From Gammaproteobacteria bacterium (lineage in GTDB: Bacteria > Pseudomonadota > Gammaproteobacteria > Burkholderiales > Burkholderiaceae_C), in the NCBI GenBank assembly GCA_018820395.1, contig JAHJOG010000269.1:1-57512 (forward strand): a stretch of 57,512 bases of DNA. Reading direction: 5' to 3'. Numbering within the stretch: the first letter of the stretch is position 1; each line of letters begins with the position of its first letter. The position numbers and the translations under genes are program-made. Positions 35,077 through 57,512 of the stretch are shown here, one piece after another. The notes under the pieces are model-generated. The model saw only the letters and a program-made list of their open reading frames with translations. It did no database searches and was not told the origin of the DNA.

Positions 35077-36145
<1,069 letters not shown>

Positions 36146-38933: not shown

Positions 38934-40331
38934 TCAATGCGCGAGGGCGGCGGCGCCTTCGGCATGCATCGCACTCCGCGCCGCCAGCCGCCCGAACACC
39001 ACCGCCTTGCCCAAGGCCGACCCGGTCATGTAGGCGCCGCCATGAAAACCACCCACCACCTCGCCGGCCGCATGCAGGCCCGCGATCGGTTCGCCGAAGA
39101 CGTCGATGACCTTCATCTGCGCGTCGATGCGCAGACCGCAATAGGTGCCGAACACCGCCGCGGTCGACGGGTAGGCATAGAAGGGCCCGGTCTCGATGCG
39201 CCGCAGCTCTCCCTGGCGATGCACCAGCGTCTCGCGGCCGAACTCGGGGTCGTGGCCCTCGTCGACGAAGCGGTTGTAGCGCGCCACCGTGTCGCGCAGC
39301 GTTTCCGCGGGCAGCTCGATCTGCCGCGCCAGCGCATCGAGCGTGTCTGCCTTCACGATCAAGCCTTCTTCCATGCGCCGCCCGAAGTCGAGGATGCGCA
39401 CGCGGTCGTCGCCGCTCTGAAAGATCGGCTCGTCGAAGATCTGGTAGCTCGTGTGGTAGGGCTGGCGCATCACGGCGTCGCCGAGCAGCTTGTACGAGAT
39501 CGACTCGTCCACGAAGCGATGCCCGTCCTGGTTCACCGCGATCGCGCCCTTGTAGACGGCCAGGCAGCTGTGATTGTTCAGCTCGTCCGTCGGGTGCTTG
39601 CCGAAGGTGCCCTTGATGTAGGCCATGTCGCGCATGTCGGCGCCGAGCTTCCAGGCCATGCGCAGGCCGTCGCCCACGTTGCCTTCACCGCCGACGAACA
39701 CGGCTTCGGCGTACTGCGGCGCGAAGCGGTGCACCAGCTCGGCATTGCGGCAGAAGCCGCCACTCGCCAGCAGCACGCCGCGTGCCGATTCGAAGCGGCA
39801 GGGGCCTTCGGGCCCTTCGGCGATCACGCCGGTGACCGGGGCGGTTTCGCTCTCTCGCACCAGGCGCTGCGCGCCGGTCGACATGTGCACCGTCACTCGC
39901 CCGGTGGCCCGGCACTTCGCGGCCAACAGCCGCACCATGTCGGCCGGGTCGACCGTGTGCACACGCGGCACCGACTGGCCCGACGAGGCTTCCAGCGACG
40001 GGCTGAACTGCAGGCCGAGCCCGCGCAGCCACTGGTAGGTGTCGAGCTGGTGGCTCACGTACGCATCGATGAGTGCCGGGTCGGCGTCGTTCTGGCCCAC
40101 TTCGATCAGGTCGCGACGCAACAGATCGTCCGAATCCTCGATGCCCTCCGCCTGCTGCAGGTCGGTGCCGGCGAAGGCCAGGCAACCGCCGCTCATCGCT
40201 GACGAGCCGCCGATGTCCGCCGTCTTTTCGAGCAGCGTGACGTCGATGCCCGCCGTCGCGGCTTCGAGCGCCGCGGCGAATCCCGCGGCACCGCCGCCGA
40301 TCACCAGCAGGCCGCATTGCTCCACCTTCAT
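38934..40331 (-). CDS. FAD-dependent oxidoreductase, fumarate reductase flavoprotein-like
   Basis: Flavoprotein of 465 residues with N-terminal GGGAAGFAAALEA dinucleotide motif, GGSSAMSGG, and a C-terminal GEVVGGFHGGAYMTG flavin loop. It resembles soluble fumarate reductases and 3-ketosteroid dehydrogenases, lacks a haem domain, and has no export signal. Its start overlaps the upstream racemase-like gene by 4 bp. It probably introduces or reduces a double bond in a dicarboxylate- or ketone-like pathway intermediate. Confidence 0.88.
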   Translation of the reverse strand: MKVEQCGLLVIGGGAAGFAAALEAATAGIDVTLLEKTADIGGSSAMSGGCLAFAGTDLQQAEGIEDSDDLLRRDLIEVGQNDADPALIDAYVSHQLDTYQWLRGLGLQFSPSLEASSGQSVPRVHTVDPADMVRLLAAKCRATGRVTVHMSTGAQRLVRESETAPVTGVIAEGPEGPCRFESARGVLLASGGFCRNAELVHRFAPQYAEAVFVGGEGNVGDGLRMAWKLGADMRDMAYIKGTFGKHPTDELNNHSCLAVYKGAIAVNQDGHRFVDESISYKLLGDAVMRQPYHTSYQIFDEPIFQSGDDRVRILDFGRRMEEGLIVKADTLDALARQIELPAETLRDTVARYNRFVDEGHDPEFGRETLVHRQGELRRIETGPFYAYPSTAAVFGTYCGLRIDAQMKVIDVFGEPIAGLHAAGEVVGGFHGGAYMTGSALGKAVVFGRLAARSAMHAEGAAALAH

Positions 40332-41134
40332 GCGGCGCTCCCGCGGCCGTAGAAGGCCATCAGTTCATCGACGCGTTCGCGCGCGGGCGGCTCGTTCCAG
40401 TAGCCGCGCTGGCAGCGCTCGACGCCACTCTGCCGCTTCAGGTCGACCAGCATTTCGGCATGCTTGACCCAGCACGAGAGCGAGTCGAGCACGGGCACGC
40501 CGTCGACGCTCGAGATCTTCTGGCTCGCCAGCAGCACGCACAGCGGCGCCTCGCCGGGGATGAGGACCTCGGCACCTTCGGCGATGCGCTTGCGCGCGGC
40601 CTCGCGAAAGCGGTCGATCAGCGGCCCGGGTGAGCTGAAGCCTTCGAGCACGTCGTTGAAGCGAAAGCCGACGTCGGTCACGCCTGCGAAACGGCCGCCC
40701 AGCCCGTACTTCACCGCGTTGTCGGCGATCAGGTCGGTGAGCTCGCTGATGAACACCATCACCGCGAAGCGCGCGCCGAGCAGACACGACGACAGCATGG
40801 CCGATTCGCCGTAGCCGACCACCGGAATGCGCAGCAGGCTGCGGATCTCGCGCAGCGCAGGGTCCGGCAGGGAGCTGATCGCATAGGCGTCGAAGCCTTC
40901 GCGTTCGGCGGCAAGGCCGGCCTCGATGAACTGCGTGGCGTGCAGGTGCTGCAGCGCCGCGTGGCGGATGTCGTTGCCCGGGTAGTTGCTGCGGTAGGTG
41001 CCGGGGCGCATGCCATGCATCACCACCTCGGTGTCGGGCCGCGCGACATGCTTGAAATGCGCACGCAGCGCGTCGTCGTAGGCACCCAGGTCCGACAGGA
41101 CCGTGAAGCTCTGGTGCCAGATTCGAATCGTCAT
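40328..41134 (-). CDS. Asp/Glu/hydantoin racemase-fold protein with altered cysteines
   Basis: Aspartate/glutamate racemase superfamily member of 268 residues. The usual first catalytic cysteine position (x-C-F-S-D-P) is S88 in ISSLPDP, and the second (LGC) is E195 in LIPGEAP. Two-base racemisation by cysteines therefore cannot operate. The ATG at 41134 has AAGG five bases upstream. A paralogue at 54772-55620 shares the IPG(D/E) change. Family relatives include maleate isomerase and arylmalonate decarboxylase, so an isomerase or decarboxylase role is possible. Confidence 0.85.
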   Translation of the reverse strand: MTIRIWHQSFTVLSDLGAYDDALRAHFKHVARPDTEVVMHGMRPGTYRSNYPGNDIRHAALQHLHATQFIEAGLAAEREGFDAYAISSLPDPALREIRSLLRIPVVGYGESAMLSSCLLGARFAVMVFISELTDLIADNAVKYGLGGRFAGVTDVGFRFNDVLEGFSSPGPLIDRFREAARKRIAEGAEVLIPGEAPLCVLLASQKISSVDGVPVLDSLSCWVKHAEMLVDLKRQSGVERCQRGYWNEPPARERVDELMAFYGRGSAA

Positions 41135-46952: not shown

Positions 46953-48101
46953 TCAACGCTGGATCACCACGCCCGATGCGCACAGCGCGTCCACGCGATC
47001 GGACGCAACGCCCCAGTCGAGCAGCGCGCTGCGCGAACTGGCGCCGGCCGACTCGGGCGGCGTCGGCATGGCGCTGGGCGTGCGGCTGAAGCGCGGCGCG
47101 GGGCGCGGCTGCACGATGCCGTCGGGCGCGACGAAGCTTTCGCGCGCGAGGTGGTGCGGATGCGAGGGCGCCTCCGCCATCGTCAACACCGGCGCGACGC
47201 AGGCGTCGGTGCCTTCGAAGAGGCGCGCCCAGTGGTCGCGATCGTGGCGCGCGAAGACCTCGGCCAGCACGGCGCGCGCGTCGCCGTGCGCGAGCGCATC
47301 GAGCGGCGGCGTGCGGTCGGCCAGGCCCAGCCGTTCGAGCAGGATGGCGCGAAACTTCGATTCGATCGGCGCCACGGACACGAAGCCACCGTCGGCGCAG
47401 CGGTAGGTGTCCCAGTAGTAGGCGCCGCCATCGAGCACGTTGGTGCCGCGCTCCACCTGCTGCACGCCGCAGGCGAGCGAGCCATAGAAGAGCGTCATGA
47501 GCGAGGCCGCGCCGTCGACGATCGCAGCATCGACCACCTGACCTTGGCCCGTGCGGCGCGCATGCAGGACCGCGCTGACCGTGCCCAGTGCCGCATAGAG
47601 CGCGCCACCGGCGAAGTCACCGAGAAGATTGAGCGGCAGCGCGGGCGGCTCGCCTCGGCGGCCCAGCGCTGCTGCGGCGCCGCTGAGCGCGAGGTAGTTG
47701 ATGTCGTGCCCCGCCGAGTGCGCGAGCGGGCCTTGCTGGCCCCAGCCGGTGATGCGCGTGTAGACCAGCGCCGGGTTGCGCGCCAGACAAGGGTCCGGCC
47801 CCAGACCCAGACGCTCGGTGGTGCCCGGCCGAAAGGGATCGAAGATCGCCTCGGCCGACTCGGCCAGCGACAGCACGAGCTCCACTCCCTCGGCCTGCTT
47901 CAGGTCGATCACCACCGAAGGCCGGCTGCGGTTCAGCAGCATGTAGCGGTCGGGCCGATGCACGCCCAGCCCGCTGGGTGTCGGGCGCTCGATGCGCAAT
48001 ACCGATGCACCGAGGTCGGCCAGCAGCATGGCCGCCATCGGCGACGGTCCGACGCCGCCGAGTTCGAGCAGCCGGAGCCCGGCGAGCGGACCCGCGTTCA
48101 C
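46953..48101 (-). CDS. CaiB/BaiF family protein, alpha-methylacyl-CoA racemase-like
   Basis: Class III CoA-transferase-fold protein of 382 residues that looks like alpha-methylacyl-CoA racemase: the catalytic pair H132 (SAGHDINYLALSG) and D162 (LLGDFAGG) is in place. The GTG at 48101 overlaps the stop of the CoA-transferase gene (GTGA), and a leftward-extended frame above it is an antisense-phase artefact of that gene. It ends the UGSC operon. It would epimerise the alpha carbon of a branched acyl-CoA made by the CoA-transferase. Confidence 0.9.
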   Translation of the reverse strand: MNAGPLAGLRLLELGGVGPSPMAAMLLADLGASVLRIERPTPSGLGVHRPDRYMLLNRSRPSVVIDLKQAEGVELVLSLAESAEAIFDPFRPGTTERLGLGPDPCLARNPALVYTRITGWGQQGPLAHSAGHDINYLALSGAAAALGRRGEPPALPLNLLGDFAGGALYAALGTVSAVLHARRTGQGQVVDAAIVDGAASLMTLFYGSLACGVQQVERGTNVLDGGAYYWDTYRCADGGFVSVAPIESKFRAILLERLGLADRTPPLDALAHGDARAVLAEVFARHDRDHWARLFEGTDACVAPVLTMAEAPSHPHHLARESFVAPDGIVQPRPAPRFSRTPSAMPTPPESAGASSRSALLDWGVASDRVDALCASGVVIQR

Positions 48102-49720
48102 GAACCCGTCCGCTCCCGGCGCGCGCGCGGTGTGGATTGCAGCAGCAGCCCCACCGGCCCGCGCCCATACATCGCAGCGGGCATGACCGCGGGTTCGGGT
48201 ACCGTGCGCAGCTCGAAGTCCAGGCACGGTGCGATGTCGCGCGCCACGTCGATGCCGGGAGCGATTTCGATCAGCGTCAGGCCTTCGGCGCGCACTTCGA
48301 ACACGCAGCGCTCGGTCACCACCAACACGCGCTGCCCGCGCGCTGCGGCCCGTGCGCCGCACAGGTCGACGTGCGCGGTCGCGCGCGGAAACTTGCGGTG
48401 CCGGCCTTCGCGCACGATCTGCACGCCGCCGTCCAGCCGGGCTTCCAGGCCGCCGCTGGTGAGCGTGCCGCAGATCAGCACCAGCGGCGTGCGATGCGCG
48501 ATGTCGACGAAGCCGCCCGGCCCGCGCAGCGAGCCGGTGTAGGCGCCGCCGACATTCACATTGCCCGCGGCGTCCACCTGCGCGAAGCCGAGGATGGTCG
48601 CGTCCAGGCCGCCGCCCTGATAGAAGTCGAAGAGGTCGGTCGGGTCGATGATCGAGCTCGGGTTGTAGTGCGCGCCGAAGGCGCCCTTCATGCACGGAAT
48701 GCCGCCGATCGCGCCGTGCTCGACGCTGAAGCGCAGCGCGTCGAGAAAGCCCTCTTCGCGGGCGAGCGCCGGCAGTTGCGTGCCCATGCCGTAGCCGAGG
48801 TTGACGAGGTCGCCGCGGTGCAGCTCCATGGCCGCGCGGCGCAGGATCAGCTTGGGCAGCCCCATCTCCATCGCCGGCAGGGGCACGTGGGGGCGCCGCA
48901 GCTCGCCGGTGAAGGCGGGCTCGTGCGCGTCCAGCGACTGTCGCGCACCGGGGTCGACCACCACGGCGTCGACCACCATGCCCGGCACCTGCACCCGGCG
49001 CGGATGCAGGCTGCCGGCGGCCGTGAGTGCCTTGACCACCGCGATCACCCGGCCGCCTGAATTGCGCGCCGCCATCGCCATCTGCAGCGCACCGCCGTTC
49101 ACTGGCTCGTCGTCCAGGCTGATGTTGCCGTCCGTGTCGGCGATGCTGCCGCGGATGAGCGCGACGTCGATCGGGATCGACGGCATGAAGATGCAGTCGA
49201 TTCCGTCGACGCAGACCCGCTTGGCGACACGCCCCGAGCGCGCGACCACACCGCCTGCCGACGACCCCGCCGGGCCGGACTGTTGCGCGTGGCCGTCCGG
49301 CTCGAAGTAGGTGCCCATGCCAACCTCGGTCAACAGCCCCGGCGAGCGCGCCGTGCACTCGCGCAGCCACTTGAAGAGCACGCCCATCGGCACCACGCTG
49401 GCGTCGATGCTGCCGTCCATCACGAGCTGGGTGAAGCGTGGCGACGCCTGCGCGCTGAAGGTCGACGTGATCAGGTGCGACACCATGCCCGCATGCGCGA
49501 AATGCTCGAAGCCGTGCGGCGAATCGGCGTCGATCCAGCCCGTGCGGTTGGGGCAGATCAGCGTCAGCGCGCGCGGGTGGCCCTGCTGCTCGAAGCGCTG
49601 GCCGAGCGCACGCAGGACGATTTCCGGGGTGACCATCGACACCACGCCGCCGACGATCACCGTGGCGCCGTCGCCGACCATTTCCGCGGCGGCGGCGGCG
49701 TCGATCACGCGCACCGCCAT
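48098..49720 (-). CDS. Type I acyl-CoA:carboxylate CoA-transferase (YdiF/SCOT-like)
   Basis: Fused alpha-beta CoA-transferase of 540 residues. The active-site glutamate is E334 in FSVEHGAIGG, and the GFAQVDAAGNVNV segment is typical of the C-terminal half. Enzymes of this type move CoA between acyl-CoA and short carboxylates. It starts 4 bp after the Bug gene and overlaps the racemase-like gene, so import, activation and epimerisation may be coordinated. Confidence 0.9.
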   Translation of the reverse strand: MAVRVIDAAAAAEMVGDGATVIVGGVVSMVTPEIVLRALGQRFEQQGHPRALTLICPNRTGWIDADSPHGFEHFAHAGMVSHLITSTFSAQASPRFTQLVMDGSIDASVVPMGVLFKWLRECTARSPGLLTEVGMGTYFEPDGHAQQSGPAGSSAGGVVARSGRVAKRVCVDGIDCIFMPSIPIDVALIRGSIADTDGNISLDDEPVNGGALQMAMAARNSGGRVIAVVKALTAAGSLHPRRVQVPGMVVDAVVVDPGARQSLDAHEPAFTGELRRPHVPLPAMEMGLPKLILRRAAMELHRGDLVNLGYGMGTQLPALAREEGFLDALRFSVEHGAIGGIPCMKGAFGAHYNPSSIIDPTDLFDFYQGGGLDATILGFAQVDAAGNVNVGGAYTGSLRGPGGFVDIAHRTPLVLICGTLTSGGLEARLDGGVQIVREGRHRKFPRATAHVDLCGARAAARGQRVLVVTERCVFEVRAEGLTLIEIAPGIDVARDIAPCLDFELRTVPEPAVMPAAMYGRGPVGLLLQSTPRARRERTGS

Positions 49721-49724
49721 CGGG

Positions 49725-50741
49725 TCACTCCACCTTGATGTTGGCGCTCTGGATCAGCTGGCGCCAACGATCGGTTTCGCTGCGGATGTACTTCGCGAAG
49801 TAGTCCGGGCCCAGCGGCGGGATGTACGAGCCCATGTCGGCGACGGTCTTCTGGATCTCGGGCATCTTCATCACCGCCGTGAACTCGGTCACCAGCCGCT
49901 TCACGATCGGCTCCGGCGTGCCCTTGGGCACCAGCACGCCGACCCAGCCCGTCACCTCGAATCCCGGCACGCCCTGCTCGGCCACGGTCGGCACGTCGGG
50001 CAGGAGCGGCGAGCGTTCCGGCGACGTGATGGCGAGCGCGCGCAGCTTGCCGCCGTTGACCATCGGGATCGCGCTCGACACCGGGTCGATCACCATCGGC
50101 ACCACGCCCGCGATCGCATCCACCAGCCCCGGCGGGCCGCCGCGGTAGGGAATGTGCGTGAGCTTGATGTTGCCGCGCTTTGCCAGCATCTCGCCCGTCA
50201 GGTGCAGCGAAGTGCCCACGCCGTTGCCCGCGAACGAAACGTTGTGGGTCTTGCCGTAGACGAGCAGGTCCTTCAGCGTCTTCACCTGGAAGTCGTTGTT
50301 GACCATGATCACGTTGCCATAGGCCATCAGCAGGCTGATGGGGATCAGGTCGCGCTCCGGGTCGTAGGGCAGGTTCTTGGTGAGCGTGGGGCTCACCGCC
50401 ATCGGACCGATGTTGCCCAGCAGCAGCGTGTAGCCATCGGGCGCCGACTTGGCGACGAAGTCGCTGCCGAGGTTGCCGCCCGCGCCTGCCTTGTTCTCGA
50501 TCACGATGGGCTGGCCCAGCCGTTCTCCGAGCTTCTGCCCGACGATGCGCGTGAGCGTGTCCGACGTGCCGCCGGCCGCGTAGGGAATGATCCACTTGAT
50601 CGGCCGCTCCGGCCACTTCTGCGCCGTGGCCTGGGCCGGGGTCTGCGATGGGGCCTGTGCCTGCGCCAGGCCCTGTGCCGAGCACAGGAGCATGGCCAGG
50701 GTTGCGAGCGTTGCCGCTTTCTTCATGCTGTCGACTCTCAT
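49725..50741 (-). CDS. Bug/TctC-family substrate-binding protein
   Basis: Periplasmic protein of 338 residues with a signal peptide ending near LAQAQA and a family core (WPERPIKWIIPYAAGGTSD, NKAGAGGN, HIPYRGG). AGGAG lies six bases before the ATG at 50741, which decides against the downstream start at 50726. It stands between the UGSC selenoprotein gene (34 bp) and the CoA-transferase, making it the probable sensor or carrier of the substrate of that operon. Confidence 0.92.
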   Translation of the reverse strand: MRVDSMKKAATLATLAMLLCSAQGLAQAQAPSQTPAQATAQKWPERPIKWIIPYAAGGTSDTLTRIVGQKLGERLGQPIVIENKAGAGGNLGSDFVAKSAPDGYTLLLGNIGPMAVSPTLTKNLPYDPERDLIPISLLMAYGNVIMVNNDFQVKTLKDLLVYGKTHNVSFAGNGVGTSLHLTGEMLAKRGNIKLTHIPYRGGPPGLVDAIAGVVPMVIDPVSSAIPMVNGGKLRALAITSPERSPLLPDVPTVAEQGVPGFEVTGWVGVLVPKGTPEPIVKRLVTEFTAVMKMPEIQKTVADMGSYIPPLGPDYFAKYIRSETDRWRQLIQSANIKVE

Positions 50742-50775: not shown

Positions 50776-52491
50776 TCAGCTTTTCGGCAGGCTGGCCCAG
50801 TCGGCCGGCAACTTGATCTCCTTCGTGGTGACTCGCGTGTAGCCCGAGTCGAGCGTCTTGATGCGGTTGCGGCCGGGGTCGCCCGCGACCAGGATCTCGA
50901 TGAACTCCGGCCCGGGCATGACGCGCACCGGGTCGTCCGGCCCGACCGCGAATTCGGGCGGCAGCGTGCCGAGCTCGATCTTTTCCTCGATCGTGTGCAC
51001 CTCGGCCATCGTGTACTTCAGCTCGAAATCCAGGTACTTGCGCGGCACCGTGGTGTTCTCGCAGATGTACTTGCGGATGTCGTCCTTCGAGTAGCCCGCC
51101 TCGGCCAGCACCTTGGCCACCGGCGGCGCGAGCACGAAGACGATGTCGTTCACGAAGCTGCCCGGCCCGCGCTCCGAAAAGAGCGCGAAGGCGGGTTTGC
51201 GCAACGCATCGCGGCAGAGCTGCTTGAGCGCGCATTCGGCGCCGCTCTGGTCTTCGCGGTCGTACGGCGACGGCTGGAAGCCCCAGTTCATCGTCGTGCT
51301 CACCGACACCGTGCTGGCATTGCGATCGAAGCCCTTCTCGACGTGGTAGGGCTCCCACGGGTTGAGGTCCTCGTTCTCGGCGAAGGCGAAATTGATCGGG
51401 TAGCCGAAGGTCCCCATCTGGTTCTTCGCCGGCCGGTAGCCACCGATGTTGCGGATGATCAGCCCCAGCGCGCGCCCGAAGGACGGGTTGGCGCCGCGCG
51501 AGATCAGCCCCGCACCGGTGTTGAAGCCCAGCTCCTTGACGATCGGCCCGTTCAGGAACACGTAGGGCGTGATGCCCCAGGTGGTGCCGATGTTGTCGAG
51601 GTTGTACTTGTCCTCCTGCAGCGCCTCGGCCATGGCGATCAGGATCGGCATGGTTTGCGGCTTGCAGCCGGCCATCACGCCGTTGGCGGCGATGTTCCAC
51701 ACCGTGGCGCGCAGGTTCATCTGCGGCAGCACCGCGATCACCTCGTCGTGCGAACGGTCGGTGTAGCGCAGGAACTCCTGCACGCGCTCCAGCGTGGGCG
51801 GGATCACCGGCAGGCCGTCGCTCCAGTCCATCTCGTGGAAGTGCGCATTGACCTCGTCGAAGTTGCCCTCGAAGACGATCTTCTTCGAATCCCAGTCACC
51901 GGCCTTGCCGAGCGTGCGCGGCTTGATCGGCTTGGTCAGTGCGGAAACGATGCGCTCGAACAGGACGTCGGTGATCTTCTCGCGGATGGTCTTCGAATCG
52001 TCGACGCCGACCGCGCCCGGGTACTCGACCACGGGCGTGTCGGGCACGCCCGCCGCCTTCGCAGCGAGCTGGCCGACCATGTTGAATCCCGGCATCGACA
52101 CCACCGCCGACGGGATGCCGAGAATCTTTTCTGCTTCTGCTGCCGGCCGCACCGCGGCCGGTGTGCAGGTGCCTCAGCCCCCGTTGCCGGTGATGACGGC
52201 GTCGGCACCCTTCGCCTTGAGCGTGGCGATGATGTCGTTGAGCACCTCGCGCTGGTACGACGGCGTGCCCTTGAGCGACGCGAACGGAATGTCGGTGTAG
52301 GGGACGATCTTCACATCGGGAAAGCGCTTCTTGAGCAGCTCCCGATAGATGGGAAACATGATGTCGCCCTTGAAGTCCTCGTTCCAGACTTCGGCGACGA
52401 CCTTGCCGTTGAGCGTGTCCAGGCGCTTGGCCAGGTTCTTCTGCTCGACGGCCTCGGCGCCGATCGGGCTGATGACGGAATACTTGTCCAT
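50776..52491 (-). CDS. UGSC-family selenoprotein with in-frame UGA (Sec106)
   Basis: One gene of 571 residues including selenocysteine. The frame opens at ATG 52491, reads 105 codons to TGNGG, meets TGA (52176-52174), then continues without another stop for 465 codons to 50776. The motif across the UGA is U-G-T-C (Sec106, Cys109) followed by TPAAV, the pattern of the UGSC (seleno)protein family known from selenoproteome surveys. A perfect hairpin follows the UGA, and selB is 4 kb away. The N-terminal part resembles Sec subunits of glycine/proline-type reductases in outline; the C-terminal 400 residues (WSDGLPVIPPT and beyond) are of unknown function. It heads an operon with Bug, CoA-transferase and racemase-like genes. 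Treating it as two broken genes is unlikely. Confidence 0.88.
52143..52176 (-). promoter_or_regulatory. Bacterial SECIS hairpin after the selenocysteine UGA
   Basis: In the mRNA, UGA (52176-52174) is followed by 20 bases and then a GGU loop (52153-52151). The loop caps a perfect 8-bp stem, CCGGCCGC (52161-52154) with GCGGCCGG (52150-52143). UGC and GCA can add a lower helix across a small internal loop. Known bacterial SECIS elements have a short stem, a small loop with an early G, and roughly this UGA-to-loop distance. Confidence 0.8.
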
Positions 52492-52632: not shown

Positions 52633-53619
52633 CTACTTCGCGCGCTGCGGCTCCAGGCCGGCCTTCTTGGCCACGCCGCTCCATTTGTCGAGCTGCGAGC
52701 GCAGGTAGGTGGTCGCCTCCTCGGGCGAGCTCACGGTGGGCGTGGTCTTGGCCGGGCCTTCGAGCCGGGCCACGGTCTCAGGCTTGGCCAGCGCCTGGCG
52801 GAAGGCCGCATTGAGCTTGTCGATCACGTCCTTGGGCGTTCCGGTCGGCACCAGCACCTCGTACCACACCGAATCGCTCAGGCTCGGAAAGCCCGACTCG
52901 ACCATGGTCGGCGCGTCCGGCAGAGCCGGGTCGCGGTCCTTGCCGGTCACGGCCAGCACCTTGACCTTGCCGGCCTTGATCTGCGGCGCCACGGCGGGCA
53001 TGGCGATCAAGCCCATCTGCACTTCGCCGGTCATGATCGCGGTGAGCGCTTCGGGCGTGCCCTTGAAGGGCACGTGCACGATGTCCAGCGAGCCCTCGTT
53101 CTTCAGCAGCTCGCCGGTCAGGTGGCCGATGCTGCCAACGCCGGCCGACGCGTAGTTGAGCTTGCCCGGCTGCGCCTTGGCCATCGCCGCGAGCTCGGCC
53201 ATCGACTTGACCGGCAGCGCCGTCGGCACCACGAAGGCCATGCGCTGCAGGCCCATCAGCGTGACGGCCTCGAAGTCCTTGCGCGGATCGAAGCCGAGTT
53301 CCATCAGGCTCGGCAGCACCGAGAAGCTCAGGCTCGCGAGGAAGAGCGTGTAGCCATCGGGCTTGGCGCGCGCCACGTACTGCGCGCCGATCGCACCGCC
53401 CGCGCCCGGCCGGTTGTCGACCACCACCGGCTGCCCGAGCGCTTCGGACAGCCCGGGCCACACGGCGCGCGCCGTGAGGTCGCTGCCGCTGCCGGCCGGA
53501 AACGGCGACACGAGCGTCACGGGCCGGCTCGGAAAGTTCTGCGCGAGCGATCCGGACGCGAGTCCGAAGCCCAGGGTGGCGGCCGTGGCGACCACGGCGA
53601 GAAAGCGTTGGCGATGCAT
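52633..53619 (-). CDS. Bug/TctC-family substrate-binding protein
   Basis: Periplasmic protein of 328 residues with signal peptide ending SLAQ-N and family motifs FPSRPVTLVSPFPAGSGSD, NRPGAGGAIG and HVPFKGTP. GAGG is seven bases before the ATG at 53619. It follows a second Bug gene by 31 bp and precedes the UGSC gene by 141 bp, so it may be part of the same or an adjacent transcript. Confidence 0.92.
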   Translation of the reverse strand: MHRQRFLAVVATAATLGFGLASGSLAQNFPSRPVTLVSPFPAGSGSDLTARAVWPGLSEALGQPVVVDNRPGAGGAIGAQYVARAKPDGYTLFLASLSFSVLPSLMELGFDPRKDFEAVTLMGLQRMAFVVPTALPVKSMAELAAMAKAQPGKLNYASAGVGSIGHLTGELLKNEGSLDIVHVPFKGTPEALTAIMTGEVQMGLIAMPAVAPQIKAGKVKVLAVTGKDRDPALPDAPTMVESGFPSLSDSVWYEVLVPTGTPKDVIDKLNAAFRQALAKPETVARLEGPAKTTPTVSSPEEATTYLRSQLDKWSGVAKKAGLEPQRAK

Positions 53620-53650: not shown

Positions 53651-54664
53651 TCAGTTCGCAGCGCTGATGTTCTTTTCCTTGACCAGTGCTCCCCAGCGCT
53701 TGAATTCTTCCGCAACGAAGCGGCGGAACGCATCGGGAGAAGCCATGACCGACGGCACCATCGCCGCCTTGAGCAGCTGCGCCTTCACGTCCTCGCGCGC
53801 CACCACCTTCACCAGCGCGGCGTTGAGCTGGTCGACCACCGCATCGGGCGTCTTGGCCGGGGCGAACACGCCCATCCAGTTGGTGACCTCGAAGCCGGGC
53901 AACTGCTCCTGCGCCGTCGGCACGTCCGGCAGCATTTCGAAGCGCTTCTGGCTCGTCACGGCGAGCGCCTTCAGCGTGCCCTGCTGGATCGACGGGAAGA
54001 GCGGCGGCAGGTCCATCACGATGCCGTCGACATGGCCGGCGATGGTGTCGGCCATCGCCGGAGCCGCGCCCTTGTAGGGCACGTGGACGATGCGGCCGCG
54101 CGAGGCCTGGATCAGCAGCTCGATCGTCAGATGCGGCAGGCCGCCGTTGCCTGACGAGGCGAGCGTGACGTCCTGCGTGCGCGTGAGCGCGAGCAGCTCG
54201 GCCAGGGTCTTGACCTTGAGCCGCGAGCCGATGGCGATGGCCTCGGGCGTGAGACCCACCGTGTTGATCGGCCGGAAATCGGTGAGCGTGTCGAACGGAA
54301 TCTTGGGCAGCGTGTGCGGCGTGATCACCACCGGGCTGGCGCTGGCGGCAAGCAGCGTGTAGCCGTCGGGCGCCGACTTGGCCACGTGGTCGGCGCCCAT
54401 GGCGCCGCTCGCGCCGGGCCGGTTCTCCACGACCACCGACGTGCCGAGCGCCTCGCCCAACGGGCCCGCGATGATGCGCGCCACGATGTCGTTGGACCCG
54501 CCGGGCGTGTAGCCGACGACGAGCCGGATCGGCCGCGTCGGAAAGTCCGCGGCGTGGCTGGCCTGCGGCAAGCCGACCAGGGCCGTGACCAGGGCCACGC
54601 CGAGGAAGAGCGCGGGGACGATGCGGCGGCGCGCACCGCTCTGGCGTGTGGGGAGTGTGAACAT
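53651..54664 (-). CDS. Bug/TctC-family substrate-binding protein
   Basis: Periplasmic protein of 337 residues, signal peptide ending ASHAA-D, family core FPTRPIRLVVGYTPGGSND, NRPGASGAMG and HVPYKGAA. Starts at 54664 and 54694 are both possible; neither has a clear ribosome site. It is divergent from a racemase-fold gene, and the gap between them carries a GAA-N7-TTC-like site placed symmetrically between the two starts. Confidence 0.9.
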   Translation of the reverse strand: MFTLPTRQSGARRRIVPALFLGVALVTALVGLPQASHAADFPTRPIRLVVGYTPGGSNDIVARIIAGPLGEALGTSVVVENRPGASGAMGADHVAKSAPDGYTLLAASASPVVITPHTLPKIPFDTLTDFRPINTVGLTPEAIAIGSRLKVKTLAELLALTRTQDVTLASSGNGGLPHLTIELLIQASRGRIVHVPYKGAAPAMADTIAGHVDGIVMDLPPLFPSIQQGTLKALAVTSQKRFEMLPDVPTAQEQLPGFEVTNWMGVFAPAKTPDAVVDQLNAALVKVVAREDVKAQLLKAAMVPSVMASPDAFRRFVAEEFKRWGALVKEKNISAAN

Positions 54665-54771: not shown

Positions 54772-55620
54772 ATGCGAATCTGGCACCAGAGCTTCACCGA
54801 TCTCAGCGCCTTTCCGCTCTATCGCGACACGCTCGCGGCCCATGCGGCCCGGGTGATGCAGGGGCGCGTGCAGGTCAGCGTGCACGGGCTGCGCCCGGGC
54901 ACCTATCCGCCGGGCGTCGCGCCGATGCAGGTGAACAGCGTGGCCGCGATGCGCACGATCGGCGAGCAGCAGGTGCTGGAGGCGGCGCTGGCGGCCGAGC
55001 GCTCGGGCCACGATGCGATGGCGATCGGCTGCTTCTTCGACCCCGCCCTGCATGCCGCGCGGTCGCTGGTCGACATTCCGGTGTTGAGCCTCACCGAGTC
55101 GTGCATGCTCACGGCCTGCTCGCTGGGGCGGCGCTTCGCCATGATTTCGGTCACGCCGTTCCAGAAGATGCTGACCGAGGATCTGGCCGCGGCCTGTGGC
55201 CTGCAGTCGCGCCTGGCGGGCGTGGTCGCCATGACGCCCGCGGTGAACCTCTTCGACCTCGAGCGGCCCGAAGCCGCCGATGCGCTGAAGGCGAGCTTCG
55301 CCTCGGCCTGCGACGCGGCGATCGCGCTCGGCGCCGAAGTGATCATTCCGGGCGACGGCGTGCTCAACGAGTTTCTCGTGCGCCATGGCGTGCTTCACGC
55401 CTCGGGCGCCGTGGTGCTCGACGCGCTCGGTGTGCTGTTTCACCACGCCGAGTTCATCGCCCGCGGCCGCGCCGCCGGCGTGCTCGACGTGAGCCGCGCC
55501 CTGCTCTATCGCCAGCCCGGCGCCGACATGCTGGCGCACGCGCGCGCCGCACACGGCCGCTTCGACTGCACGGAAACCGACTTCTCGGGCCCGAACAGAG
55601 GGCCAGCCGATCAGGCCTGA
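54772..55620 (+). CDS. Asp/Glu/hydantoin racemase-fold protein
   Basis: Racemase-superfamily protein of 282 residues, paralogous to the protein at 40328-41134 (shared IWHQSFT start and RPGTY). The first catalytic position is cysteine (C87 in GCFFDPAL), but the second is D195 in IIPGDGV. With one cysteine it fits decarboxylase or isomerase chemistry better than racemisation. Its stop lies in a 10-bp overlap with the convergent thioredoxin-reductase-like gene. Confidence 0.87.
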   Translation: MRIWHQSFTDLSAFPLYRDTLAAHAARVMQGRVQVSVHGLRPGTYPPGVAPMQVNSVAAMRTIGEQQVLEAALAAERSGHDAMAIGCFFDPALHAARSLVDIPVLSLTESCMLTACSLGRRFAMISVTPFQKMLTEDLAAACGLQSRLAGVVAMTPAVNLFDLERPEAADALKASFASACDAAIALGAEVIIPGDGVLNEFLVRHGVLHASGAVVLDALGVLFHHAEFIARGRAAGVLDVSRALLYRQPGADMLAHARAAHGRFDCTETDFSGPNRGPADQA

Positions 55621-56564
55621 GCTGGCGCCGGGGCGGTTGGCGACGATCCCGGCGCTGTCGGCATCGACGCGGACTGCGACAGCCTGGCGATGACCGAGCG
55701 TGCCGCGGCCTGGCCGTCGGCCACCGCGTCGGCCAGCATGCCGCCGCAACCGGCGCGCACCGCCCCGGCGGCGAACACGCCGGGCACGGCAGTCTGGCGG
55801 TCCGGTCCGGCGACCACCGCACCGCGCGCGTCGCGCTCGACCTCGGCCGGCAGGAAGGCGCTCGCCGGCTCCAGGCCGACGAAGGCGAAGAAACCGCTGC
55901 AGGCGATCGTCTGGCCGTTCACGCGCACGCCCTCCACGCCGTCGCTGCCCAGCACCGCCTCCACCGCGCTGTCGAACTGCACCCGGATGTTCGGCGCCGC
56001 GGCCACCGCTTCGACCCAGCGCGGGCCGGCATCGAAGGCGCTGCCGCGATGCACCAGGTGCACCGTCTGGCAGAACTTCGACAGCACCACGGCCGACTGC
56101 AGCGCCGAATCGCCGCCGCCCGCCACCACCACGTCCTGCCCCTGGAACATCGGCCCGTCGCAGTCGGCGCAGTGCGACACGCCCTTGTGTTCGAGCTCGG
56201 CCTCGCCGGGCACGCCGAGCTTTCGAAGCGACGCGCCCGAGGCCACGATGACGGCGCGCGCGCGGTGGCGGCCCGCGTCGCTCACCACCACCCACGCGTC
56301 GCCGTCGCGTTCGATGTGCGAGGCCACCCCTTCGAGGTTCTCGCCGCCGAGGTCGGCGACTTCCGAGACCCAGGTCGACGAGAGTTCGGCTCCGCTGCCC
56401 TGGATCTCGCCGTCGAGCTCGTTCACGTTGAGCACCAGGCCGCCGAACATCTGCGCCTCCAGCCAGGCGGTGGACAGGCCGGCGCGCAAGGCTTCGAGCG
56501 CGGCGTTGAGGCCGGCCGCGCCGGCGCCGATGACGACGAGGTCGTGGGAAGTGGTGTCGCTCAT
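55611..56564 (-). CDS. Thioredoxin reductase-like flavoprotein linked to selB
   Basis: FAD/NAD(P)H-binding disulfide reductase of 317 residues. GAGAAGLNAALEA, the redox pair CADC (C132, C135), the second dinucleotide motif GGGDSALQSA and C-terminal GVFAAGA are visible. It is shorter on key conserved loops than the canonical TrxB at 35077. The ATG at 56564 overlaps the selB stop by 4 bp, so it is translated from the selB transcript. It may supply electrons to a selenoprotein, which is inference. Confidence 0.9.
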   Translation of the reverse strand: MSDTTSHDLVVIGAGAAGLNAALEALRAGLSTAWLEAQMFGGLVLNVNELDGEIQGSGAELSSTWVSEVADLGGENLEGVASHIERDGDAWVVVSDAGRHRARAVIVASGASLRKLGVPGEAELEHKGVSHCADCDGPMFQGQDVVVAGGGDSALQSAVVLSKFCQTVHLVHRGSAFDAGPRWVEAVAAAPNIRVQFDSAVEAVLGSDGVEGVRVNGQTIACSGFFAFVGLEPASAFLPAEVERDARGAVVAGPDRQTAVPGVFAAGAVRAGCGGMLADAVADGQAAARSVIARLSQSASMPTAPGSSPTAPAPAQA

Positions 56565-57512
56565 GTGGATGTTTCTCCTTGAAGGGATGGACGGTTGGCG
56601 GGGTGGGTGCGCAGCACGCGAACGTCGCCCACGCGCTGCGTGGCGCCCTGCCGGTCGAGCGCTTCGAGGACCTGCACGGCGAGCGCGCGGCCGATGCCCG
56701 CTCCGTCGCGAAACTGCGCGGCCGTGAAGCGGCCGCCGGGCACGGCGTCGGCCACGCCGCGCGCGGCGCGGACGAATTCGTCCATCGTCTCGCGCCGGTA
56801 GAAGCGGTCGTCGCCGACGCGCGCGGCGGCGCCGGTCTGAGTCTTGCGAAACAGCATGTCGCGCAGCACCGATTCCTTGGCGTGCAGCAGTTCGGCGAGG
56901 CGCGGCACGGTGAGGCCCGCGAAACCGGCGCGCGTCAGTGCCGGCCCGGCCAGTTCCCACAGGCGCAGGTGCTCGGCGTTCTCGGGCACCGCGACCGGCC
57001 GCTTGCGCGCGAGCAGCGCCTCGGCAGCTTCGGGCGCCAGCACCCGGGCCTGCGCGCCGGTGCCCACGCAGACGCGCTGCGACTGCTTCAGCACGTGCGC
57101 GAAGGCATCGGCATCGAGGTTCAGGTTGCGTGCGAAGGCGGCCGCATCCACTCCCTTGGGCGTGCACGCGACCAGTTCGCGCAGGGCGTCGGCGGCCGAG
57201 GGCAAGGCCAGGGCCTGCAACTGCCGCTGGCGCAGGGCATGGGGGATGCGCGGCTGCACCGGCGATGCGTCCAGCACGTGCCCGCCGCCCACGGTGCGCT
57301 GCGCGGACTGGTCGCGCAGGATGAAGCGGTCGCCGTGCAGCGCCGACACGGGCTGATCCACCACCAGCCGCGCGAGTGCCTCGGTGCCGGCCGCGATGGC
57401 TTCGCCGCGGCGCAGCGAGACGCGCGCGGTCACGTCGCGCGTGCCCAGGTGCAGATGCACCGGCGTCCAGTGGCGCAGCGCATGCGCCTCGCTCGCGAGT
57501 ACCCGCAGCACG
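56561..57512 (-). CDS. selB: Selenocysteine-specific translation elongation factor SelB (C-terminal part)
   Basis: Partial gene; the N-terminal GTPase domains lie beyond the right edge. The visible 317 residues start in the SelB-specific domain (VHLHLGTRDVTARVSL) and contain the RDQSAQRTVGGGHVLD motif conserved in SelB. They end in winged-helix repeats that in characterised SelB proteins bind the SECIS hairpin. Its presence shows that the organism can read UGA as selenocysteine. selA and selC are not in the window. The stop overlaps the thioredoxin-reductase-like start. Confidence 0.93.
   Translation of the reverse strand, partial: VLRVLASEAHALRHWTPVHLHLGTRDVTARVSLRRGEAIAAGTEALARLVVDQPVSALHGDRFILRDQSAQRTVGGGHVLDASPVQPRIPHALRQRQLQALALPSAADALRELVACTPKGVDAAAFARNLNLDADAFAHVLKQSQRVCVGTGAQARVLAPEAAEALLARKRPVAVPENAEHLRLWELAGPALTRAGFAGLTVPRLAELLHAKESVLRDMLFRKTQTGAAARVGDDRFYRRETMDEFVRAARGVADAVPGGRFTAAQFRDGAGIGRALAVQVLEALDRQGATQRVGDVRVLRTHPANRPSLQGETST

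Follow-up and report, generated by a model that had tools for sequence, protein, structure and literature searches.

A UGSC-family gene with a probable selenocysteine codon joins a PrdB-related domain to a conserved C-terminal partner domain in a Burkholderiales bacterium

A single in-frame TGA divides an otherwise open reading frame in a contig from a gammaproteobacterium of the order Burkholderiales (JAHJOG010000269.1 of assembly GCA_018820395.1; the whole stretch of 57,512 nucleotides that we analyzed is called the window). Is this TGA translated as selenocysteine (Sec), and what kind of enzyme would then be made? An initial annotation, drawn from the letters of the window, had joined two open frames across the TGA into a selenoprotein of the UGSC type with a U-x-x-C motif and 465 open codons downstream. 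Translation bore this out: 105 codons, the TGA, 465 codons, and a stop form one minus-strand frame of 571 codons, in which the TGA is the sole interruption. By eye, a GAGG lies about 10 bases upstream of the ATG. The motif at the TGA is U-G-T-C, a variant of UGSC, and Pfam family PF24696 matched residues 6 to 186, nearly over its whole model and across the TGA, with 80.9 bits (cut-off, 25), compared to 25.2 bits for the downstream open reading frame alone. The two pieces thus make one domain. The features of the locus are collected in Table 1.

Table 1. Features of the UGSC locus (positions in the window)
Feature	Position	Strand	Basis
UGSC selenoprotein gene, predicted; 571 residues, Sec at residue 106	50776..52491	-	Translation and Pfam
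In-frame TGA, probably read as selenocysteine 106	52174..52176	-	Translation; homologue alignment
Cys109, putative partner of Sec106 in the UxxC motif	52165..52167	-	Cys in 37/37 fused proteins
UGSC domain, residues 6-186, remotely homologous to PrdB-type selenoproteins by profile comparison	51934..52476	-	PF24696, 1.6e-22; hhalign
C-terminal partner domain, about residues 196-571; conserved DGLP, MAGC(K/R)P, GP, R, N, E	50779..51906	-	Alignments
Cys276 of the MAGC motif	51664..51666	-	34/37 fused proteins; all 30 rows of the invariant-position alignment
SECIS-like hairpin, 8-bp stem, GGU apical loop, loop start 20 nt after UGA	52143..52161	-	Fold and comparative
selB, C-terminal part (316 codons), cut by the window end	56561..57511	-	Pfam; contig overlap
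Thioredoxin-reductase-like flavoprotein, CADC motif, directly after selB; candidate electron donor	55611..56564	-	Pfam/NCBIfam
Second TctC/Bug-type solute-binding protein	53651..54664	-	
TctC/Bug-type solute-binding protein, just upstream	52633..53619	-	
Third TctC/Bug-type solute-binding protein, directly downstream	49725..50741	-	
CoA-transferase, same direction, downstream	48098..49720	-	Pfam/NCBIfam

The protein has the Sec/Cys motif seen in other members of the UGSC family (PF24696; NCBIfam NF041046) but differs from them in its UGTC motif and in being fused to a C-terminal domain. It reached 44.7 bits against NF041046, below the equivalog cut-off of 125, which two stand-alone homologues pass (137.4 and 130.2 bits). 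Neither the family nor the fusion is new. UGSC selenoproteins and a UGSC/Unknown_1 fusion were printed in the 2008 Global Ocean Sampling survey, the accessible text of which describes UGSC joined to a conserved domain of unknown function (PMC2398784); this is probably the architecture seen here, the domains being likened by description, although the thioredoxin-like fold suggested there does not fit our model. In the accessible parts of later overviews, UGSC appears in a table with 26 and 33 as the figures in its row (2016 survey; PMC5029168), is listed as a family (2022 review; PMC9312934), and is named among largely uncharacterized selenoproteins (2026 review). Our literature search, with most subscription journals outside its scope, returned no functional study of UGSC. 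The window gene is a further member of this known family.

We aligned homologues at the Sec position. The fused set contained 38 proteins, mostly from genomes of the same order, and since two of them (L029 and L085) are identical, it comprised 37 distinct sequences, the window's included; the loci were hand-chosen from a search with the C-terminal domain and are not a random sample. Short loci among L001 to L005, L013, and L015 to L043 were set aside as duplicates, apart from L023, L025, L029, L032, L033, L035, L036, and L040 to L043. A TGA stands at the motif codon in 36 of these 37, the remaining one (L077) carrying CSTC. Separate UGSC domains in the loci, among which we counted three cases where the domains do not come in N-then-C order (L055, L068, and L070), have the TGA at the motif in 15 of 15 cases. 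Furthermore, 149 of the 150 UGSC matches listed from 300 genomes of the same order hold exactly one in-frame TGA (hand count, anywhere in the match). Plasmid records (12 examined out of 24 with domain matches) and two further genomes added motifs with TGA (Acidovorax sp. T1, Paracoccus versutus, and G434) and with Cys (Natrinema, Haloterrigena, Halorientalis, Halalkalicoccus, Embleya, Variovorax boronicumulans, Variovorax sp. SRS16, Neorhizobium, and G438). Haloarchaea are not known to decode Sec. Wherever a protein with a UxxC/CxxC motif lacks the TGA, the position is Cys (10/10) and never Trp. Close homologues and most of the distant ones thus agree with the proposed Sec; another residue, named beforehand as grounds for rejecting it, was found only in a distant branch with M-G-T-S at the motif, namely, the plasmid copies of Vibrio europaeus and Sporomusa termitida plus G235 (by eye). 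This branch keeps both domains and lacks the redox pair. Its members (L097, L098, and L073:7100-7980) include V. europaeus and S. termitida copies that lie near aconitase X and DUF126 genes.

The machinery for Sec insertion is split over two contigs of the genome. The initial annotation had placed selB in the window, which holds its C-terminal 316 codons; the N-terminal part lies on another contig, C12, together with tRNA-Sec and selA. ARAGORN found no tRNA in the window itself. C12 breaks off within selB, and over the final 55 bases this contig coincides, apart from one mismatch, with the end of the window (the start of the window's reverse strand). Because selB is divided by this overlap, selA, selB, the reductase-like gene, and the UGSC gene probably form one region, and in Variovorax sp. 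WDL1 (L044) all four are found on one contig. Among the 300 genomes, selA exceeded its cut-off in 32 of the 34 with UGSC over cut-off compared to 55 of the 266 others, with a Fisher p of 1.8e-17 that is too small since the genomes are related. The two UGSC genomes without selA over cut-off are G103, in which selB was found, and G144, which is 84% complete. As for formate dehydrogenase alpha as a Sec user in the window's genome, none of its 18 matches passed the cut-off and none had an internal stop. C12 also carries a second UGSC fusion (L014:2298-3899) with one in-frame TGA, 37% identical to the window's; it is found beyond tRNA-Sec, in a divergent arrangement next to tRNA-Sec and selA.

A hairpin had been proposed at the right distance from the TGA, and it is indeed present. 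Taken alone it stands out only slightly (z, -1.32; an equally good fold in 22 of 200 shuffles; stability rank of 0.07 among the windows of its own gene). Since this single-sequence fold is unconvincing, we turned to the comparative set, which carries the support. By a criterion of our own, set after general SECIS rules (loop start 14 to 37 nt after the UGA, loop of 3 to 14 nt, G in its first two bases), SECIS-like geometry was found at 44 of 47 TGA sites, taken from an earlier version of the homologue set, compared to 3088 of 6968 windows elsewhere in the same genes, and at 29 of the 47 sites the hairpin ranks within the most stable tenth of its own gene's windows. In the group of the window (14 distinct rows), 97.3% of stem cells pair and one pair is changed on both sides; this count is not above shuffles (472/500 reach it), while the covariation score is (0/500). 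In the stand-alone UGSC group, three pairs are changed on both sides, which 9 of 500 shuffles reach; related rows can exceed all these shuffles without any structure. In the window's group, the two bases that covary are the first positions of an Ala/Ser codon and of an Arg codon: nine rows with T use AGG for Arg, and six rows with G use CGG. AGG makes up only 160 of 4665 Arg codons (simple gene caller, 14 of these 15 loci), and its retention where it restores pairing is good evidence of selection on the RNA. Rfam returned nothing at gathering scores in the 57,512-nt window. With the spanning domain, the TGA/Cys pattern, and the Sec machinery, the TGA is almost certainly decoded as Sec.

What does the UGSC domain resemble? 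The predicted model of the full protein (pLDDT, 94.4; pTM, 0.93) has alternating strands and helices in its N-terminal part, with Sec106 between a strand (98 to 104) and a helix (109 to 124). Foldseek matched it weakly to MccF, hydantoin racemase, and CheY (best E, 8.7e-4), and no thioredoxin fold appeared among the best 50 of the 1465 matches. In this model the domain looks Rossmann-like rather than thioredoxin-like as suggested earlier. A profile search of PDB sequences gave nine rows, with a best E of 0.27. We compared a UGSC profile (14 rows) with one of PrdB-like proteins from genomes of the same order (10 of at least 24 matches used; none of the 10 reaches the PrdB cut-off, and 7 carry TGA at the motif); in this one comparison, hhalign gave a probability of 94.1 and an E of 1.3e-7 and aligned UxxC with UxxC. 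Single sequences also gave weak matches between the UGSC protein and PrdB/GrdB. These alignments place the UGSC domain among the remote homologues of PrdB-type selenoproteins. In the accessible text of PMC9908766, such a Sec protein works in glycine and D-proline reductases together with another subunit that bears a pyruvoyl group. The window protein shares the homologous Sec domain but differs from GrdB/PrdB in scoring far below the PrdB cut-off (TIGR04483, 19.7 bits versus 300) and in a C-terminal partner whose match to PF09338 (GrdE/PrdA) is not significant. PrdB-like proteins had no match in the window's genome; several genomes of the same order do encode such proteins with TGA in frame at the motif (L105 to L108 and L110 to L112), scoring far below the D-proline reductase cut-off.

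The C-terminal part, for which the first reading could name no function, indeed matched nothing in Pfam or NCBIfam. Among its stand-alone relatives, 10 tested against Pfam gave one chance-level row (DUF7333; E, 0.15), and none of 8 matched NCBIfam. An alignment of 30 rows shows invariant D, P, P, MAGC, P, GP, R, N, and E. Cys276 may not be catalytic, because it is replaced in some relatives (Thr in L077, Ala in Neorhizobium), and its motif is altered in V. boronicumulans. Modeled alone (pLDDT, 87.2), the domain had no Foldseek match to solved structures at E ≤ 0.001, which is no proof of a new fold; the best, very weak match was fumarate hydratase (E, 0.05). We also considered PF09338, the GrdE/PrdA partner family, as its identity, which was not supported (4 of 60 members matched, best E 0.04, not significant); a search of 249 Pseudomonadota genomes with PF09338 gave no match, and the control was likewise silent.

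The two domains occur together. The C-terminal domain is matched in every one of the 34 genomes whose UGSC score exceeds the cut-off (at most 11 UGSC and 4 C-terminal-domain candidates were scored per genome), and the reverse nearly holds: of 36 genomes with the C-terminal domain, the exceptions are G235, which has it in the MGTS form and no UGSC over cut-off, and G153, whose N-terminal match is marginal. The parts are also found as separate neighboring genes in L066 to L070 and on haloarchaeal plasmids. The latter (L094, L093, L102, and L103) carry adjoining genes for a split UGSC (CGSC) and the C-terminal domain, followed directly in L094 by an NAD(P)/FAD oxidoreductase. In Pseudomonadota as a whole the C-terminal domain is rare, being found in 3 of 249 genomes drawn, the window's own included, and phages gave no match to it. 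At least 11 UGSC matches per genome were found in 8 of the 300 genomes.

We examined the neighborhood in 51 units, from the same hand-chosen loci. A thioredoxin-reductase-like gene lies at most three genes away in 11 of them (10 loci), 6 times beside selB and 5 times elsewhere; the other 40, the window's included, have none within three genes, the window's being the fourth gene from the UGSC gene. The protein encoded there is 78% identical to that of Variovorax sp. WDL1 and 32% identical to the window's ordinary-looking trxB (the window has two thioredoxin-reductase-type genes, at 35077-36024 and directly after selB). Among reductase-like neighbors on plasmids, that of L099 resembles ordinary trxB (71%) more than the selB-linked type (32%), and those of L094 and L095 are roughly as far from the one as from the other. 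Genes for CoA-transferase, acyl-CoA dehydrogenase, PrpD-like, and SDR proteins recur around the units, several of these labels being given from the appearance of the sequence. A TctC gene is directly adjacent on the same strand in 20 of 51 units; for the other genes of these loci the figure is 68 of 350 (binomial p, 0.0009; the loci are related). A special link between UGSC and TctC/Bug is modest, TctC/Bug genes being very numerous in relatives: there are 85 matches in this 5.28-Mb genome and at least 97 in each relative checked. First-look candidates numbered 707, 693, and 995 in G263, G131, and G293, of which 97 each were scored. Between the reductase-like and UGSC genes, on the opposite strand, lies an Asp/Glu-racemase-like gene (54772-55620) with a paralogue in the same cluster at 40328-41134; the Pfam run covered the former.

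Taken as a whole, these data are best explained by a two-component, substrate-specific Sec reductase, to which we give a probability of roughly 0.6. SelB and tRNA-Sec would insert Sec at the UGA of codon 106, with guidance from the hairpin that closely follows it, and the product would be a two-domain enzyme. In its Rossmann-like UGSC domain, related to the Sec domain of PrdB/GrdB, Sec106 and Cys109 would form a UxxC pair where a helix begins, and the C-terminal domain would bind and activate a specific small organic substrate. Sec106 would attack or reduce this substrate, Cys109 would resolve the intermediate, and the thioredoxin-reductase-like NAD(P)H flavoprotein would return the pair to its reduced form. 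We infer a substrate-specific reductase because of the relation to PrdB and the many paralogues. A redox use of Sec106 is very probable, whereas reduction of a substrate in the manner of GrdB/PrdB is a prospect that we put slightly short of even. Still more tentatively, UGSC and its C-terminal partner might join glycine and D-proline reductases as a third class of selenium-dependent reductases of specific substrates, with a partner of new fold, an NAD(P)H flavoprotein, many substrate-specific copies in Burkholderiales, Cys in haloarchaea, and other chemistry in the MGTS branch.

To the known family, this analysis adds the co-occurrence of the two domains, the unmatched C-terminal domain, the PrdB relation with a Rossmann-like model, the reductase-like neighbors, and the MGTS branch; in the accessible text of the literature searched, we found no prior mention of the co-occurrence, of the relation to PrdB, or of the correction of the fold. 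If the proposal of a two-part enzyme with an amino-acid-reductase Sec domain and a thioredoxin-reductase-like electron source is true, an open question becomes a testable assay, for which the natural Cys and MGTS versions are ready-made comparisons.

Sec could also be inserted into a general thiol-disulfide or peroxide-scavenging enzyme, with the C-terminal domain as a mere docking part. The UxxC motif and the thioredoxin-reductase-like neighbors would suit such an enzyme, and the accessible text of the 2008 survey calls a thioredoxin-like fold likely and suggests redox activity (PMC2398784). We consider this unlikely, given the best 50 Foldseek matches without a thioredoxin fold and a C-terminal domain that has many near-invariant polar residues and is present in all 34 UGSC genomes; the high copy numbers also fit substrate specialization better than housekeeping.

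The resemblance of the model to hydantoin racemase (2eq5; E, 3.7e-3) raises the question of whether the main activity of the protein is that of a lyase, isomerase, or racemase acting on small acids, in which Sec or Cys would act in acid-base or nucleophilic rather than redox chemistry. The weak fumarate hydratase match of the C-terminal model points the same way, as does the MGTS branch, which has no redox pair and two members near aconitase X genes. The likeness to the Asp/Glu/hydantoin racemase fold is weak and structural, whereas in sequence it is not significant (1 of 60 members; E, 0.075). All 37 fused proteins, in which residue 106 is U or C, retain Cys109, and reductase-like genes are among the neighbors, so that we regard this reading as quite improbable.

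On the bare sequence, a pseudogene, or two genes separated by a true stop, would do as well. Decayed or misread copies do occur in relatives. L077 (reverse strand, G103:C1:67042-68232) may be a damaged or misread copy, its only in-frame TGA replacing a conserved Trp of the C-terminal domain, and two UGSC fusions with an extra in-frame TAA or TAG besides the TGA (G263:C26:14618-16300 and G293:C307:2568-3761) are possibly decayed copies or assembly errors. We compared dN and dS on both sides of the TGA. Against Variovorax sp. WDL1, the nearest relative, they were 0.026/0.399 before and 0.050/0.391 after it (ratios of about 0.07 and 0.13), and against L045 0.136/0.630 and 0.156/0.707. In both of these nearest relatives dN is well below dS, the downstream frame has not been lost, and the two comparisons show purifying selection before and after the TGA. 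The values for L046 (0.291/0.784 and 0.327/1.074), L047 (0.539/0.690 and 0.403/0.727), and the paralogue L014 (0.735/0.627 and 0.721/0.867) speak neither for nor against it, presumably because codon bias and saturation hold dS down. With the domain spanning the TGA, the same-codon TGA in 36 of 37 fused proteins, the conserved hairpin, and tRNA-Sec, selA, and selB in the genome, a pseudogene or a pair of genes is very improbable, and the preference for Sec voiced in the initial annotation stands.

A genome-wide reading of TGA as another amino acid such as Trp, in favor of which we found nothing in this genome, has a negligible probability: tRNA-Sec, selA, and selB are present, the position without TGA is always Cys in the UxxC/CxxC proteins, and the UGSC gene itself ends with a TGA.
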